Positions 21,883 through 28,195 of a stretch of DNA of 64,000 bases are shown one piece after another (the first letter of the stretch is position 1; every line of letters starts with the position of its first letter). The position numbers and the translations under genes were made by a program. The notes below the pieces were generated by a model. It did no database searches. It saw nothing but the letters and a program-made list of their open reading frames with translations, and was not told the origin of the DNA. The stretch spans positions 1 to 64,000 of the forward strand of contig JANTFX010000007.1 in NCBI GenBank assembly GCA_024763215.1, written 5' to 3'. The stretch comes from Candidatus Krumholzibacteriia bacterium. Lineage in GTDB: Bacteria > Krumholzibacteriota > Krumholzibacteriia > LZORAL124-64-63.

Positions 21883-24351
21883 TCAGGTCGGGGCGCCGAC
21901 CCCGGTCTGAGGTTCGCACAGGAAGGTCAGCTTGCCGTTTTCCATGCCGATGGTCAACCGGCTGTTGCTGGTGACCTGCCCGCGCAAAAGCCGCTCGCTG
22001 AGCGGATCCTCGACATGCTTCTGGATGGCCCGGCGCAGCGGCCGCGCCCCCAGGTTGGGATCGAAGCCCACATCGCACAGGAAATCCTTGCACTCGCGCG
22101 TGAAGTCGAAGCTGATCTCCAGGCTGTGCAGGCGGTCGCTGACGTCCTTGAGCAGGATGTCCACGATCCTGGTGATCTCCTCGCGCCCCAGCGAGTTGAA
22201 GGTGATGATCTCGTCGATGCGGTTGAGGAACTCGGGGCTGAAGGTCTTGCGCAGATCCGCGTCGATGTTGCCCTGAACGCGCTGCTGGTTCTGATCGGCC
22301 TCGTCGGAGCCGAAGCCGACCCCCCGGACCTGGTGCGTGCGCCGGCTGCCCACGTTGCTGGTCATGATCAGCACGGCGTTGCGGAAATCCACCGTGCGGC
22401 CGAAGCTGTCGGTGAGCTGCCCGTCGTCCAGCACCTGCAGCAGGATGTTGAAGACGTCCTGGTGCGCCTTCTCGATCTCGTCCAGCAGAATCACGGAGTA
22501 GGGCTTGCGCCGGACCTTCTCGGTCAGCATGCCCCCCTCGTCGTACCCCACGTAACCCGGAGGCGCCCCCACCAGCCGGCTCACCGAATGCTTTTCCATG
22601 TACTCGGACATGTCCACGCGGATCAGCGAGGACTGGTCGCCGAACAGGAACTCGGTCAAACGGCGGGCCACCTCGGTCTTGCCCACGCCGCTGGGTCCCA
22701 GGAAGATGAACGAGCCGATGGGCCGCCGCGGATCCCGCAGCCCGGCCCGGTTGCGCCGGATGCACTTGGAAACCGCCGCCAGGGCGTCGTCCTGGCCGAT
22801 GATCCACTTGCCGAGTTCCTCCTCCATGCGCAGCAGCTTGTCGGTCTCCTCCTCTTCCACCTCGGACACGGGGATCCCGGTGATGTCGGCGATGACCTTG
22901 CAGATAAGCTGGGGCCCGACCGCGGTCCGGGTCTCGGCCGTTCCGTCGGTGAGGTTCAGCTTCAGACCCTGGAGCTTCTGCTTCAGCTCCTTCTCCTCAT
23001 CCCGGAAGGCGGCGGCCTTCTCGAACTCCTGGGCCTGGATGGCCGTCTCCTTCTCGGTGATGACCTCCTCGATGCGCTGCTCGAGCTCTCTGAGGTCCGG
23101 CGGCACGACGGTCATGCTCAGGCGGGCGCGGCTGCCGGCCTCGTCGATGATGTCGATGGCCTTGTCGGGCAGGGCGCGTCCGGAGATGTAGCGGTTGGAC
23201 AGGTACACCGCGGCCTTGATGGCCTCGTCCTCGTACACGACCTTGTGGTGCTGCTCGTACTTGTCCTTCAGGCCGAACAGGATCTCCACGGTCTCATCCT
23301 CGCTGGGCGGGTTGACCGTCACCGGCTGGAAACGCCGCTCCAGGGCGCCGTCCTTCTCGATATACTTGCGGTACTCGTCCATGGTCGTGGCGCCGACGCA
23401 TTGGATCTCGCCCCGGCTCAGGGCGGGCTTGAGCATGTTGCTGGCGTCGATGGCGCCCTCGGCCCCGCCGGCCCCGACGATGGTGTGCAACTCGTCGATG
23501 AACAGGATCACGTCGGGGTTCTCACGGATCTCGGCCATGATCTGCTTGAGACGCTCCTCGAACTGGCCTCGGTACTTGGTGCCGGCGACCACGCTGGCCA
23601 GATCCAGGGTGAAGATCTCCTTGCCCCGCAACAGGGCGGGCACGTCCCCTTCGACGATGCGGGTGGCGAAACCCTCCACGATGGCGGTCTTGCCCACCCC
23701 GGGCTCACCGATCAGCACGGGGTTGTTCTTCTTGCGGCGGCTGAGGATCTGGATGCAGCGGTCGATCTCGCGGGCGCGGCCGATGGTGGGGTCGAGCTTG
23801 CCTTCGCGGGCCATCTCGGTCATGTTGCGCCCGAACTGCTCCAGGATGGAGCCTTCCTTCTTGGCCGGCTTCTTGCGCCCGCGCGGGCTGAACAGGGCCT
23901 TGCCCTCGCCCCCGCCCCCGCCCAGGGCCTTCATGACCTCACGCTTGACGCCCTCGTGGTCCACGCCCAGCTCGCCCAGGACCCGGGCCGCCACGCCCTC
24001 GCCCTCGCGGATCAGCGCCAGCAGCAGGTGCTCGGTGCCAACGTAGTTGTGGTTGTGCAGCCGCGCTTCGTCGATGGACAGCTCCAGGACCTTCTTCGCC
24101 CGGGGCGTGAACGGAATCTCCCCTATGCTCACCGGCCCCATGGGCGCGGTCACCGAATCCTCCACGGCCTTCTGCAACCGCTCGAAGTCCACGTTCATCC
24201 GGTGCAGGACGTTGGCGGCAACCCCGTCCCCCTCGCGAATGATCCCGAGCAGCAGATGCTCGGTGCCGATGTAATCGTGTTGCAGCCGTCCGGCTTCGTC
24301 ACGGGCCAGGAACAGAACCTTGCGCACACGCTGGGTAAAGCGGTCATTCAT
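21883..24351 (-). CDS. clpC: ClpC, AAA+ unfoldase of the Clp protease
   Basis: Hexameric HSP100 unfoldase that feeds substrates to ClpP. The 822-residue protein has a double Clp N-domain (about 1-145), a first AAA domain with Walker [14 protein letters not shown] and Walker [11 protein letters not shown], a middle coiled-coil with a UVR-like segment ([20 protein letters not shown]), a second AAA domain with GPSGVGKTE and [10 protein letters not shown], and the C-terminal D2-small domain. The middle domain is short, as in ClpC rather than ClpB. ATG at 24351 has GGAGG nine bases upstream. mcsA and mcsB lie just upstream, as in Firmicutes, but no ctsR is present. ClpP is not in the window. Confidence 0.95.
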
Positions 24352-24574
24352 GAACTATCGCCTCCGATGGCAGTTTTCACCGGGGATCCTCCCCGGACAT
24401 CCGAAAAAAGCGGGGAACGCCCCACCTCTCTTGCAAGAAATATACTGGAAACGGGCCTTACACGCTACACAAGCCTGGTCGGCAGGGGTGGCGTACCGGT
24501 GCCACGATCCGCAGGGGATTCGGGACCTGTTTCGGCAGTTTGCAAGGGTTTCTTTAACCCGGATCCTGGAATCC
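24352..24574 (-). other. clpC leader/promoter region
   Basis: A 223-base spacer between mcsB and clpC. On the minus strand it holds TATATT (24437-24442) as a possible -10 without a good -35, a 4-bp hairpin followed by six T (around 24402-24422), and a CCGGGG-AGGAT-CCCCGG hairpin (24384-24400) about 35 bases before the start codon. I find no CIRCE element and no CtsR direct repeat (GGTCAAA-type). clpC may therefore be both co-transcribed with mcsB and separately controlled. Confidence 0.4.
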
Positions 24575-25639
24575 TCAAGCCGCGGCCACGCCCAGCAGAG
24601 CCCGAAACATGCTCGCCCTCGCATGCATCAATTCCTTGCCCTGCAATTGTTTGCCGGATTCCAGCTCCAGATGGCCCGGCTGCTGCCTCAGGAGGGCTGC
24701 ATTCAGTTGGGCCAGGCTCACATCCGGCAGGATCCCCAGGGCGGCCCCCAACCTCAGGTTGGACAGCCGGTCGTAACCTTCCTGCAGGGACATCAGGCGC
24801 GCCTGCCGGCAAACGGCCAGGGAACGGCAGCATAGATCTTCCAGGCCGAGGGGGTCGGAGCGGTAGAGCTGGCGGCGCGCGGACCGTTCATGCAGAACGA
24901 TCTTGCCGACATGGGCGGCAAAATCCTCCGCCACCTCCTGCTCGGTGCGGCCCAGGGTGATGAGATTGGAGATCAGGAACAGGCAGCCCTTGACGGTCTC
25001 GGACCTCTCTCCCAGGCCCCGCACGGTGAACTGGAGCTGGCGCAAGGCATTGACGATCTTCTCGATCTCGCCGGCCATGACCAGCCCCGGCAGGTGCACC
25101 AGGGCCGTCAGCCGCAAACCCGTCCCTACCCGGGTGGGTCGGGCCGTCAGATAGCCGAACTCCTCGCTGAAGGCGAAGGTGAACTTCCCGGCCAGGGACT
25201 CCTCGAGTTCGAGCACCTCGTCCACGGCCCCGACGGGAGCGAACCCGCACCGCCAGGCCTTCAGGCGCAGATGGTCCTCCTCGTTGACCACCAGGGCCAG
25301 GCGCAGTTCCTCGTCCCCGACCAGGCCGCAGCCCAGGTGGCTGTTGGCGGTTTGCACCCGGATCAGGCCCTTCTCCAGGAGGCACTGGCGGACGAGCGGC
25401 CGGACATCCTCGAACTGGATCCGGGGCTGGCCGGCCAGGCGGCCGACGCCCTCCAGGTTCCGGAAAACCTCCCCCAGCACCGTGCGCCGCTCCACATCGG
25501 ACGCCTTGTCCGGGAACGGGAACGACCAGAGGTTGCGCCCCAGGACGGCCCCGGTGGCCAGGACGATGTCCTGGTCCGGCCCCGCCCCGGTCTGCCAGGG
25601 CTGCGGCCTGCTCAACCAGCTTCGGATCCCTTCATCCAC
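24575..25639 (-). CDS. mcsB: McsB homologue with altered kinase signature (possible pseudokinase)
   Basis: Homologue of the protein-arginine kinase McsB, which in Bacillus tags proteins with phospho-arginine for ClpCP. Length (354 residues) and order NEEDH (119-123), RGLGERSE (207-214) and ISNLITLG (223-230) fit the family. Several conserved sites differ: the ATP-binding SSRxRLARN block reads ATGAVLGRN (28-36), and the phosphagen-kinase signature CP[ST]N[IV]GT reads RPTRVGT (167-173), replacing its Cys and Asn by Arg. ISNQ is ISNL, and the RD-type phospho-arginine pocket near the C-terminus is not recognisable. The GTG start at 25639 has GGGAGG six bases upstream and overlaps mcsA by eight bases. 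Confidence 0.85.
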   Translation of the reverse strand: MDEGIRSWLSRPQPWQTGAGPDQDIVLATGAVLGRNLWSFPFPDKASDVERRTVLGEVFRNLEGVGRLAGQPRIQFEDVRPLVRQCLLEKGLIRVQTANSHLGCGLVGDEELRLALVVNEEDHLRLKAWRCGFAPVGAVDEVLELEESLAGKFTFAFSEEFGYLTARPTRVGTGLRLTALVHLPGLVMAGEIEKIVNALRQLQFTVRGLGERSETVKGCLFLISNLITLGRTEQEVAEDFAAHVGKIVLHERSARRQLYRSDPLGLEDLCCRSLAVCRQARLMSLQEGYDRLSNLRLGAALGILPDVSLAQLNAALLRQQPGHLELESGKQLQGKELMHARASMFRALLGVAAA

Positions 25640-26213
25640 GGGGATCCTCCCGGTCCGGGCGCTGCGCGAGGATGCGCAACTGGTCGCGCAAGCGGGCGGC
25701 CTCCTCGAACTCCTCGGCGGCGATGGCCTTCTCCATGGCGACCCGCAGACGCGAGAGTTCCACCAGGCGGTTGCCGCCCCCGTTGCGGTCGCCGGGAGCA
25801 CGGCCGATATGGGTGGCGTGGCGGTGGAAGGCCGTCAGCAGGGGCACGAGCCGGGACCGGAAAGAGGCATAGCACCGGGCGCAGCCGAGCCGGCCGGACT
25901 CGTGGAAATCATGCCAGGTCGCACCGCACTGGGGGCAGGGTTTGACCGGCTCTGCAGGCAGCGGCTGACCGGCCGCCTGCCCGAGGAAACCCAGCATGGA
26001 ATCGAATACCTCCGCCAATTCGTCCTGCTCAGGCAAACCCGGAAGATCAGGCTGGTCCTCCCCGGATCCCGGTTCCCGATTGACGGCATCGAGACGCCGC
26101 CATTGCTCGGCCTCGGCGCACTCGGAGCACAGCCACAGATCCCGCTGCTTCCCGGCGTTCCTCTCCACCAGATGAACGGTGGCCTCCTTAATCCCGCATT
26201 GCTGGCACTTCAT
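25632..26213 (-). CDS. mcsA: McsA, zinc-finger activator of McsB/ClpC
   Basis: Small adaptor that activates McsB in Firmicutes. The 193-residue protein has an N-terminal four-Cys zinc module (MKCQQCG and LCSEC), a second pair CPQCG and CARCY at about 93-116, and a C-terminal UVR-type helical hairpin (AMEKAIAAEEFEEAARLRDQ) also found in ClpC and UvrB. All eight cysteines are present, so metal binding should be intact even though the partner kinase looks altered. Its start overlaps the lolD stop by four bases (ATGA), and its end contains the mcsB Shine-Dalgarno and start. Confidence 0.9.
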   Translation of the reverse strand: MKCQQCGIKEATVHLVERNAGKQRDLWLCSECAEAEQWRRLDAVNREPGSGEDQPDLPGLPEQDELAEVFDSMLGFLGQAAGQPLPAEPVKPCPQCGATWHDFHESGRLGCARCYASFRSRLVPLLTAFHRHATHIGRAPGDRNGGGNRLVELSRLRVAMEKAIAAEEFEEAARLRDQLRILAQRPDREDPRG

Positions 26214-26911
26214 ACCTGATCCGCTTCCGTTGCATCCACCGGCCTCAGTTGCCCCTGTTCCAGATGGAGATGCCTGTCCGCGCGGGCCGCCAGGCCCTGG
26301 TCGTGGGTGACGATGACCAGGCTGGTGCCGTCGGTCTCCTTCAACTCGAACAGGAGATCGCCCAGCTGGCCGCCAATCCGCTGATCAAGGTTGCCGAAAG
26401 GCTCGTCGGCCAGGACGACCTGGGGGCTGTTCATGAAGGCCCGCGCCACGGCCACCCGCTGCTGCTCTCCGCCCGAGAGTTCACCCGGCAGATGATGCCG
26501 CCGGTCGCCGAGCCCCATGCGATCGAGGAACTCCAGGGCCCGCTCGCGGTCCCGGTCCGTGGCCTCGCGCTGGGCCCGCACGGGGATCAGCAGGTTCTCC
26601 AGGGCCGTGAAATCGGGCAGCAGGAAGTGGAACTGGAAAACGAAGCCCACCACCACGGTCCGCCAGCGGGTCAGGGAGGCATGCGAAGCGAAGTCGAGGG
26701 GCTCGCCCTGGCAGACGACCTCGCCTTCGCTGGGGGCATCCAGCCCGCCCAGGATGTTCAGCAGGGTGCTCTTGCCCGAACCGCTGGCCCCGGTGACGGC
26801 CACCGCCTCGCCCTTTTCCACCTGCAGGTCGCAGCCCCGCAGGACCTCGACCAGCCCCCCGTGGCGCGGGAAGCTCTTGGCGAGATTCCTGGCCGTCAAC
26901 AGCGTGGTCAT
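26210..26911 (-). CDS. lolD: LolD, ATPase of the lipoprotein release ABC transporter
   Basis: Powers extraction of outer-membrane lipoproteins from the inner membrane. The 233-residue ABC protein has Walker [12 protein letters not shown] (about 39-49), the MacB/LolD-type [18 protein letters not shown]-loop, the [15 protein letters not shown] signature, [12 protein letters not shown] Walker B, and the switch His in VIVTHD. ATG at 26911 has GGAGG six bases upstream, better than the TTG two codons earlier. It follows lolC after 30 bases; the pair forms the transporter. Confidence 0.93.
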
Positions 26912-26941
26912 GGTCAACCTCCGGGCCGCCGTGGGCCGGGA

Positions 26942-28195
26942 TCAGGTGTAGCGGATGATTTCCATGGGCTTGAGATTGGAAGCCTCCCAGCTGGGCCACA
27001 ATCCCGCGAGCAGGGAAATGGCCATGCCGACAGCCGCGATGAGGAAGAAGTCGCCCCACTGCAGCAGCACCGGCACCTTGTCCACGAAATAGACGTCCCC
27101 GGGCAGGGAAAAACCGAACGTGTGCAAGGCCCAGATACCGGTCAGTCCCAGCGCAGCACCGGCGGCCACCCCGATGGAGCCCAGCCAGAAACCGTTGAGC
27201 AGGAAGATGCCCATGATCCGCCGGCGGGGCGAGCCCATCGCCAGCAGGATCCCGATTTCCCGGCGGCGCTCACCCACCATCATGGTCAGGATGCCGATGA
27301 TGTTGAAGCCGGCGATCAGCACGATCATCCCCAGCAGCAGGATCATGATGATCTTCTCCAGCTTGATCCAGTGGAACAGGTTCTGGTTGAGGGTCATCCA
27401 GGCCGTCGCGTGGTAATGGGCGCCCAGGGCCGCGTCCAGCTTGTCGGCCACCTTGTCCGCGCGCATGGGGTCGGAAACCCCGGCGCCGATGAGCGTCGCC
27501 CCTCCGGTCCGGTAGCCGAAGAAATCCCGGGCGGCCTGCAGACCCATATACACGAAGCGGCTGTCGAACTCGTACATGCCGGTCTCGAAATAACCGCTGA
27601 CCACGAATTTGCGGCTGACGGCCTGGATATCGTCCAGATCCATCTCGCCGTTGACCGAGGTCAGGATGACCGTGTCCCCGATCTGGGTGAAGAGGTTGTT
27701 GGCCAGTTCGCTGCCGATGATCACGCGCGGGGTCCGCTCGTCCCCCGCAGAGGCCAGGCCGGACAGCAGCACCGGATCCGGCTTGATGTGGCTGCCCAGG
27801 GGCTGGACGGTGTCGACCAGCTCCGGCACCACCCCCCAGGCGATGCCCGCCTGGGGGCGCGGCGGCCCCAGGTTGCGGGCCGCGGTCACCAGGATCTCCT
27901 GCCGGATGTAAGGCGCCACGCCCGTGACCCCATCGACCTGGTCGATCCGGTCCATGGTCCCGCCGAGATCCGAGAATCCCTCCGGGGCGCTGGTGATCAC
28001 CGTGATCATGGGCATGTTCTCGATGAAGGAACGCCGCATCTCCTGGTGGAAGCCGTTCATGATGGCCAGGGTGATGTTCAGCACCATCACCCCGATGGCG
28101 ATGCCGATCACGGCGGTCATGCTGCCCCGGCTCAGGAAACGGCTGTGGCGTCTGCTGCGCAGGTAGCGGGCGGCGATGTAGCCGGAAAATCCCAT
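26942..28195 (-). CDS. lolC: LolC/LolE-type permease
   Basis: Membrane subunit of the lipoprotein-releasing complex. The 417-residue protein has the Lol-specific N-terminus YIAARYLRSRRHSRFLS, a first membrane helix (about 25-47), a large periplasmic domain (about 50-270), and three further helices in the FtsX domain, with the signature MVGERRREIGILLAMGSPRRRIMGIFLL split across about 308-335. Only one permease gene is present, suggesting a LolC2D2 or LolF-like arrangement instead of the E. coli LolCDE. The start lies two bases from the lysS stop, so translation is probably coupled. Confidence 0.92.
   Translation of the reverse strand: MGFSGYIAARYLRSRRHSRFLSRGSMTAVIGIAIGVMVLNITLAIMNGFHQEMRRSFIENMPMITVITSAPEGFSDLGGTMDRIDQVDGVTGVAPYIRQEILVTAARNLGPPRPQAGIAWGVVPELVDTVQPLGSHIKPDPVLLSGLASAGDERTPRVIIGSELANNLFTQIGDTVILTSVNGEMDLDDIQAVSRKFVVSGYFETGMYEFDSRFVYMGLQAARDFFGYRTGGATLIGAGVSDPMRADKVADKLDAALGAHYHATAWMTLNQNLFHWIKLEKIIMILLLGMIVLIAGFNIIGILTMMVGERRREIGILLAMGSPRRRIMGIFLLNGFWLGSIGVAAGAALGLTGIWALHTFGFSLPGDVYFVDKVPVLLQWGDFFLIAAVGMAISLLAGLWPSWEASNLKPMEIIRYT

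Follow-up and report, generated by a model that had tools for sequence, protein, structure and literature searches.

A putative McsB pseudokinase retained beside McsA and ClpC in Candidatus Krumholzibacteriota

The mcsA-mcsB-clpC locus

The window, the whole stretch of 64,000 nucleotides of Candidatus Krumholzibacteriia DNA analysed here, carries a gene for a homologue of the protein-arginine kinase McsB (Table 1) within a conserved cluster of the order lysS-lolE-lolD-mcsA-mcsB-clpC-bamA, in which mcsB and clpC are spaced by 223 nt. The encoded protein is a true McsB homologue, matching the Pfam family ATP-gua_Ptrans with an E value of 8e-40 and giving McsB as its best matches in the PDB (E 7e-58). 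Its scores nevertheless fall far under the cut-offs of the NCBI 'protein arginine kinase' equivalogs (254.9 versus 385 bits and 247 versus 500 bits). An AlphaFold2 model has a mean pLDDT of 90.8 and a pTM of 0.89, with residues 211–214 of the lid loop as the only poor-confidence inner stretch, and in Foldseek it superimposes on B. subtilis McsB (6tv6) with a TM score of 0.94 at 1.7 Å. In homology and fold, and with mcsA and clpC adjoining, the gene is that of a McsB. An earlier note, made from the sequence alone, had described an altered mcsB that preserves length, fold, gene order and overlap next to intact mcsA and clpC, and this description is borne out by the 354-residue protein, the high-confidence model, the conserved cluster, the 8-nt overlap, the eight zinc-finger cysteines of McsA and the two GTEH motifs of ClpC.

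Table 1. Positions in the window of the genes and sequence features discussed in the text.
Feature	Position	Strand	Basis or remark
mcsB, putative pseudokinase gene, 354 codons (354 aa), GTG start	24575..25639	minus	read from 25639 to 24575; Pfam, NCBIfam and PDB searches, AlphaFold2, Foldseek
mcsA, both zinc fingers (8 Cys) intact	25632..26213	minus	3' end overlapped by mcsB (8 nt)
clpC, intact, both N-domain GTEH (pArg-pocket) motifs	21883..24351	minus	
lolD and lolE/C, upstream neighbours of mcsA	26210..28195	minus	conserved gene cluster
Degenerate ATP-phosphate block ATGAVLGRN, residues 28–36	25532..25558	minus	R29G and R31V; lost in all four species of the genus
Degenerate phosphagen-kinase signature RPTRVGT, residues 167–173	25121..25141	minus	C167R and N170R
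Lid loop RGLGERSET, catalytic Glu212 replaced by Arg	24995..25021	minus	alignment; lowest inner model confidence (211–214)
pArg-receptor pair R337/D338 replaced by Leu-Met	24626..24631	minus	alignment; function of the pair from PMC8370763
Retained loop A156–A166, McsA zinc-finger contact in S. aureus McsB	25142..25174	minus	conservation; role from PMC12467219
Promoter-like element TAGCG-N17-GTATATT, upstream of clpC	24439..24467	minus	genome search and family comparison

Loss of catalytic residues in the window McsB

The window protein was compared with the McsB proteins of B. subtilis and G. stearothermophilus, and residue roles were assigned from papers on McsB and through the arginine-kinase equivalents Arg124/126/229/280/309, Glu225/314 and Cys271. 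Residues are numbered as in B. subtilis McsB, which coincides with the window protein from residue 121 on; before that, R29 and R31 correspond to Gly30 and Val32 of the window protein. The replacements are R29G, R31V, C167R, N170R, E212R, R337L and D338M, and E121, D122, H123, R125, R176 and R207 are still present, so that only four of the eight catalytic residues (R29, R31, E121, R125, C167, R176, R207 and E212) are found. The pair R337/D338, which forms the phospho-arginine (pArg) receptor of McsB (PMC8370763), is absent as well. Both degenerate motifs given in the earlier note, RPTRVGT and ATGAVLGRN, are thus present at the residues it named, and its claim that kinase residues have been lost holds for the whole lineage, although it had missed the losses of E212 and R337/D338. 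The change of ISNQ to ISNL, to which it also pointed, does occur but carries no diagnostic weight: at position 226, 80% of intact relatives have Ser, and Leu is found in intact-kinase proteins too.

The same erosion is found in three congeneric species from separate assemblies, all of which lack R29, R31 and E212; the congeners are missing between three and seven of the eight key residues. Position 167 is hypervariable among the four species (Arg, Cys, Tyr or His), R170 is common to all of them, and position 212 is Arg in three, including the window, and Pro in one, with equal loop length. Pairwise phmmer comparison masks the loss of E212 by a one-residue gap, whereas the alignment within the genus is ungapped.

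Distribution of the losses across the phylum

The sample comprised 80 genomes of Candidatus Krumholzibacteriota, in 69 of which the eight key residues were scored. Families f2 and f4–f8 have all eight almost without exception, most of the few misses falling at contig ends or in runs of N. The window's own family of uncultured Gram-negative bacteria, f1, includes two intact genera (g4 and g12) and a clade of 25 genomes in which Ser is the commonest state at position 167 and within which E212, E121 and the arginines have been lost repeatedly. The substitution C167S occurs naturally in 18 of the 23 sequences of this eroded clade; genus g2 and part of g9 keep all key residues but C167, and the genus of the window is among the most eroded. 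On a tree built from ClpC, LysS, LolE and LolD, with McsB excluded, parsimony gives 4–6 changes per site (six for E212, four for C167 and six for E121), counts that come from a quick tree with some open forks. The ancestor was an ordinary protein-arginine kinase activated by McsA, of the kind that most of the other families still have, and the pattern in f1 is one of a single C167S substitution followed by repeated loss of catalytic glutamates and arginines.

Family f3 eroded separately from f1 on the same tree. In this second, independent McsB erosion (L077, L078, L080 and L081), the specificity position of the YwlE-type arginine phosphatase (see below) is Ile in three of the four loci, and the fourth keeps Thr there together with C167, E121 and E212.

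For comparison beyond the phylum, a scan of single proteins in named genomes gave no matches, but an alignment scan fetched 80 McsB loci, four from Candidatus Krumholzibacteriota and 76 from elsewhere. Each of the 76 loci outside the phylum has all eight key residues, in a scan that was keyed on conserved motifs (of the HLPGLV and NEEDHL types) and hence biased toward intact proteins.

Selection on McsB

The earlier note had suggested a comparison of dN/dS at the altered sites, along with an alignment to Bacillus and Geobacillus McsB and a structural model; dN/dS ratios were calculated here by the NG86 method. The ratio for mcsB is 0.23–0.53 in the window genus, 0.14–0.20 in g2 and 0.08–0.15 in g8, constraint being looser in the window genus than in the other two; in g13 dS was often saturated. 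Since the ratio in the window genus is ∼2–4 times that of clpC (0.08–0.20), and since mcsAB has been lost in sister branches, the relaxation is real. The McsB/LysS divergence ratio is likewise ∼3 in the eroded genera versus 1.3–1.5 in most intact comparisons. Constraint on McsB is relaxed but clearly present: because dN/dS lies well below 1 and the open reading frame is intact in more than 20 species, the gene is not a free-running pseudogene. To this extent the earlier note was right that mcsB is not a decaying pseudogene, but slow decay is a rival explanation that stands. Two marks of a pseudoenzyme, loss of catalytic residues from an active ancestor and an intact reading frame under purifying selection, are found here.

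Conservation was also followed column by column, using the 71 columns with a conservation of 95% or more among intact relatives and 16 sequences that lack a catalytic Glu. In these 16 eroded sequences 43 of the 71 columns are still at least 85% conserved, and C167, E212, E120, T169, N170 and R337 are among the 13 that have been lost. Residues A156, G162 and T165 of the loop that touches the zinc finger of McsA in S. aureus McsB (PMC12467219) are kept in all 16, and conservation of the dimer domain is the same in eroded and intact proteins (0.67 versus 0.67). A Fisher test of catalytic against other conserved columns, applied to each sequence, is weak for the window (p 0.09); only in some of its relatives is it strong.

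Partner proteins and the region upstream of clpC

Both zinc fingers of McsA are kept in the eroded genomes, with a few entries shortened by start choice or contig ends. In f1 the genes mcsA and mcsB share the same fate: g5, g6, g10 and g14 have neither, and lolD then adjoins clpC, a joint loss on at least two branches (g5, and g6/g10/g14). At the loci L222 (G045), L223 (G047) and L225–L229 (G069–G072 and G056) mcsAB is absent from an otherwise conserved lysS-lolE-lolD-clpC-bamA cluster. The gap in front of clpC, after mcsB or lolD, is 128–264 nt in f1 versus −4 to 56 nt elsewhere, and the gap of 17 f1 genomes, including G045, which has lost mcsAB, contains the element TAGCG-N17-GTATATT with identical spacing. 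This element occurs once in the whole window genome and is found in the window's family only, and we infer that it is probably the promoter of clpC.

The window genome encodes ClpP, and nearly all ClpC proteins retain both GTEH motifs. Conservation of these pockets was rejected as a test for the use of phospho-arginine: they are uninformative because almost every genome that lacks McsB has the same motifs too and because the pArg pockets also stabilise the resting state of ClpC (PMC12583610). The adaptor ClpS, considered as a replacement for McsB, was rejected since none was detected in the 38 genomes of f1.

No orthologue of the YwlE-type arginine phosphatase was found in the window genome; the search gave none in G000, G057 and G059. 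At the position where Thr directs YwlE to pArg and Ile to pTyr (PMC8001253), Thr is replaced by Ile or Ser in several genera with eroded McsB (L264–L266, L278, L280, L282, L283, L304 and L306), and a few intact-kinase genomes elsewhere have Ser or Val. Thr is found in 11 of the 12 genomes in which E121, C167 and E212 are intact versus 7 of the 26 others, an association that is not significant as a test of co-evolution because there are only three phylogenetically independent pairs. A link between the change in YwlE and the loss of kinase residues is suggestive only.

Discussion

We propose, with a probability of about 0.58, that the window gene encodes a maintained, lineage-specific McsB pseudokinase and that McsA and McsB together serve ClpC as adaptor or regulator with no phosphorylation involved. 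The eroded McsB proteins very probably lack kinase activity, judging from their residues. A role as adaptor, which the earlier note had suggested between McsA and ClpC, or as regulator is put at somewhat better than even odds, given that McsA and the loop that contacts it have been retained and that in B. subtilis the C167S protein has an activity independent of the kinase function. Starting from a normal McsA-activated protein-arginine kinase, the signature Cys would have changed to Ser once in the window's family, with repeated loss of catalytic glutamates and phosphate-binding arginines thereafter, while the fold, the dimer domain, the McsA-contact loop and the gene order were kept. The McsA–McsB complex would now control proteolysis by ClpC (or ClpX) without transferring phosphoryl groups, and clpC would have gained its own promoter. 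Selection still maintains McsB, the partner that activates it and its place in the gene cluster despite the stepwise loss of catalytic residues, so that McsB probably works without kinase chemistry, and the simplest account is that selection here preserves the kinase-independent part of McsB. Such a part has been described in B. subtilis, where MgsR has a half-life of 12.3 min in the presence of the kinase-inactive C167S protein versus 17.7 min in the mcsB deletion, an effect ascribed by the authors to a kinase-independent adaptor function (PMC7235348). The main ClpC-adaptor role of McsB in B. subtilis, however, requires its kinase activity (PMC5506225).

The main rival to the maintained pseudokinase is slow decay toward gene loss, in which phosphorylation was abandoned after clpC acquired its own promoter and McsB is eroding under relaxed selection as a relic, functionless beyond perhaps a harmless complex. 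This explanation is live because mcsAB has been deleted in sister lineages, cleanly in g5 and in g6/g10/g14, and it would also account for the raised McsB/LysS ratio of the eroded genera, for dN/dS values of up to 0.53 and for the McsA detected in g3, which is short and has an in-frame stop. We nevertheless consider it rather unlikely, given that g2 and g8 have intact reading frames under strong purifying selection despite deep divergence, that the McsA-contact loop, the dimer domain and the zinc fingers of McsA are fully kept, and that more than 20 species retain McsB along with McsA.

An active but altered kinase, in which E121, R125, R176, R207 and the new R170 support weak phosphorylation of arginine or of another residue, is distinctly less probable again. 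Three of the five phosphate-binding arginines and one catalytic Glu are left in the window protein, the four congeners conserve R170, and g2 and part of g9 lack C167 only; judging by the titles of papers by Gattis (2004), cited in PMC12467219, and Pruett (2003), cited in PMC11075012, the Cys and the Glu pair of arginine kinase are reportedly not absolutely required, the substituted enzymes being said to stay partly active. Set against this are the loss of R29, R31 and E212 together throughout the window genus, the Arg at position 212, which should repel the guanidinium group, and the failure to find a YwlE-type phosphatase in the window genome. The earlier note had also allowed for a different chemistry, but this idea gained no positive support, because position 167 has turned hypervariable instead of converging on a new catalytic residue. 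Finally, an artefact is hardly credible even in draft, probably metagenome-assembled genomes with an E212 region prone to gapping in pairwise alignment: the losses are not sequencing errors, a possibility the earlier note had raised, because R29, R31 and E212 are also missing from three sister species, and frame error or misassembly was rejected since independent assemblies share the losses, no frameshift is present and graded losses run across the family.

The putative pseudokinase may be set beside several known systems. The McsB proteins of Bacillus, Geobacillus and Staphylococcus (6tv6, 6fh1, 8gqd and 8wtb) have the length, two-domain fold and mcsA-mcsB-clpC order of the window protein and share its McsA-contact loop and dimer domain; unlike them, the window protein lacks C167, E212, R29, R31 and R337/D338, scores below the equivalog level and comes from a genome in which no YwlE-type orthologue was found. 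The B. subtilis C167S protein has likewise lost the signature Cys and retained the rest of the protein, but it is a laboratory allele, whereas the substitution in f1 is natural, fixed in the clade and followed by further catalytic losses, the window itself having Arg. Bacterial Ser/Thr pseudokinases (ActPs1, ActPs2, DYD and DLHK) are also conserved kinase-like proteins without catalytic residues, although their fold is unrelated to that of McsB and arginine kinases are set aside in the review that describes them (PMC12599244). Chlamydia, likewise Gram-negative, resembles the window in combining a McsAB operon with ClpC, but in the literature searched its McsB is treated as a functional or putative kinase and is not called catalytically degenerate.

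No prior report of a natural McsB pseudokinase was found in the open-access literature searched. We know of no earlier pseudokinase with the protein-arginine-kinase fold, so that this one, if confirmed, would be the first. The published evidence for a role of McsB other than phosphorylation consists, in the literature searched, of the B. subtilis C167S allele. The eroded clade, in which C167S is fixed, the chemistry has probably been dismantled and the complex kept, supplies natural proteins that have gone to different lengths in this loss, and a kinase-independent role is therefore directly testable in it. More tentatively, and short of even odds, the whole family may have made its McsA–McsB–ClpC system phosphorylation-free. 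In this wider proposal McsB would be a scaffold held by McsA or a reader with a basic pocket (E212R and N170R in the window) that controls ClpCP, the phosphatase would have been lost or changed at its pArg-specificity residue, clpC would be expressed from its own promoter, and a second family would have undergone a similar, independent loss.

A minor observation concerns McsA at locus L076 (G040), which adjoins a strongly eroded McsB. The match contains an internal stop, and its longest frame includes only the second zinc finger; this is possibly decay in progress.
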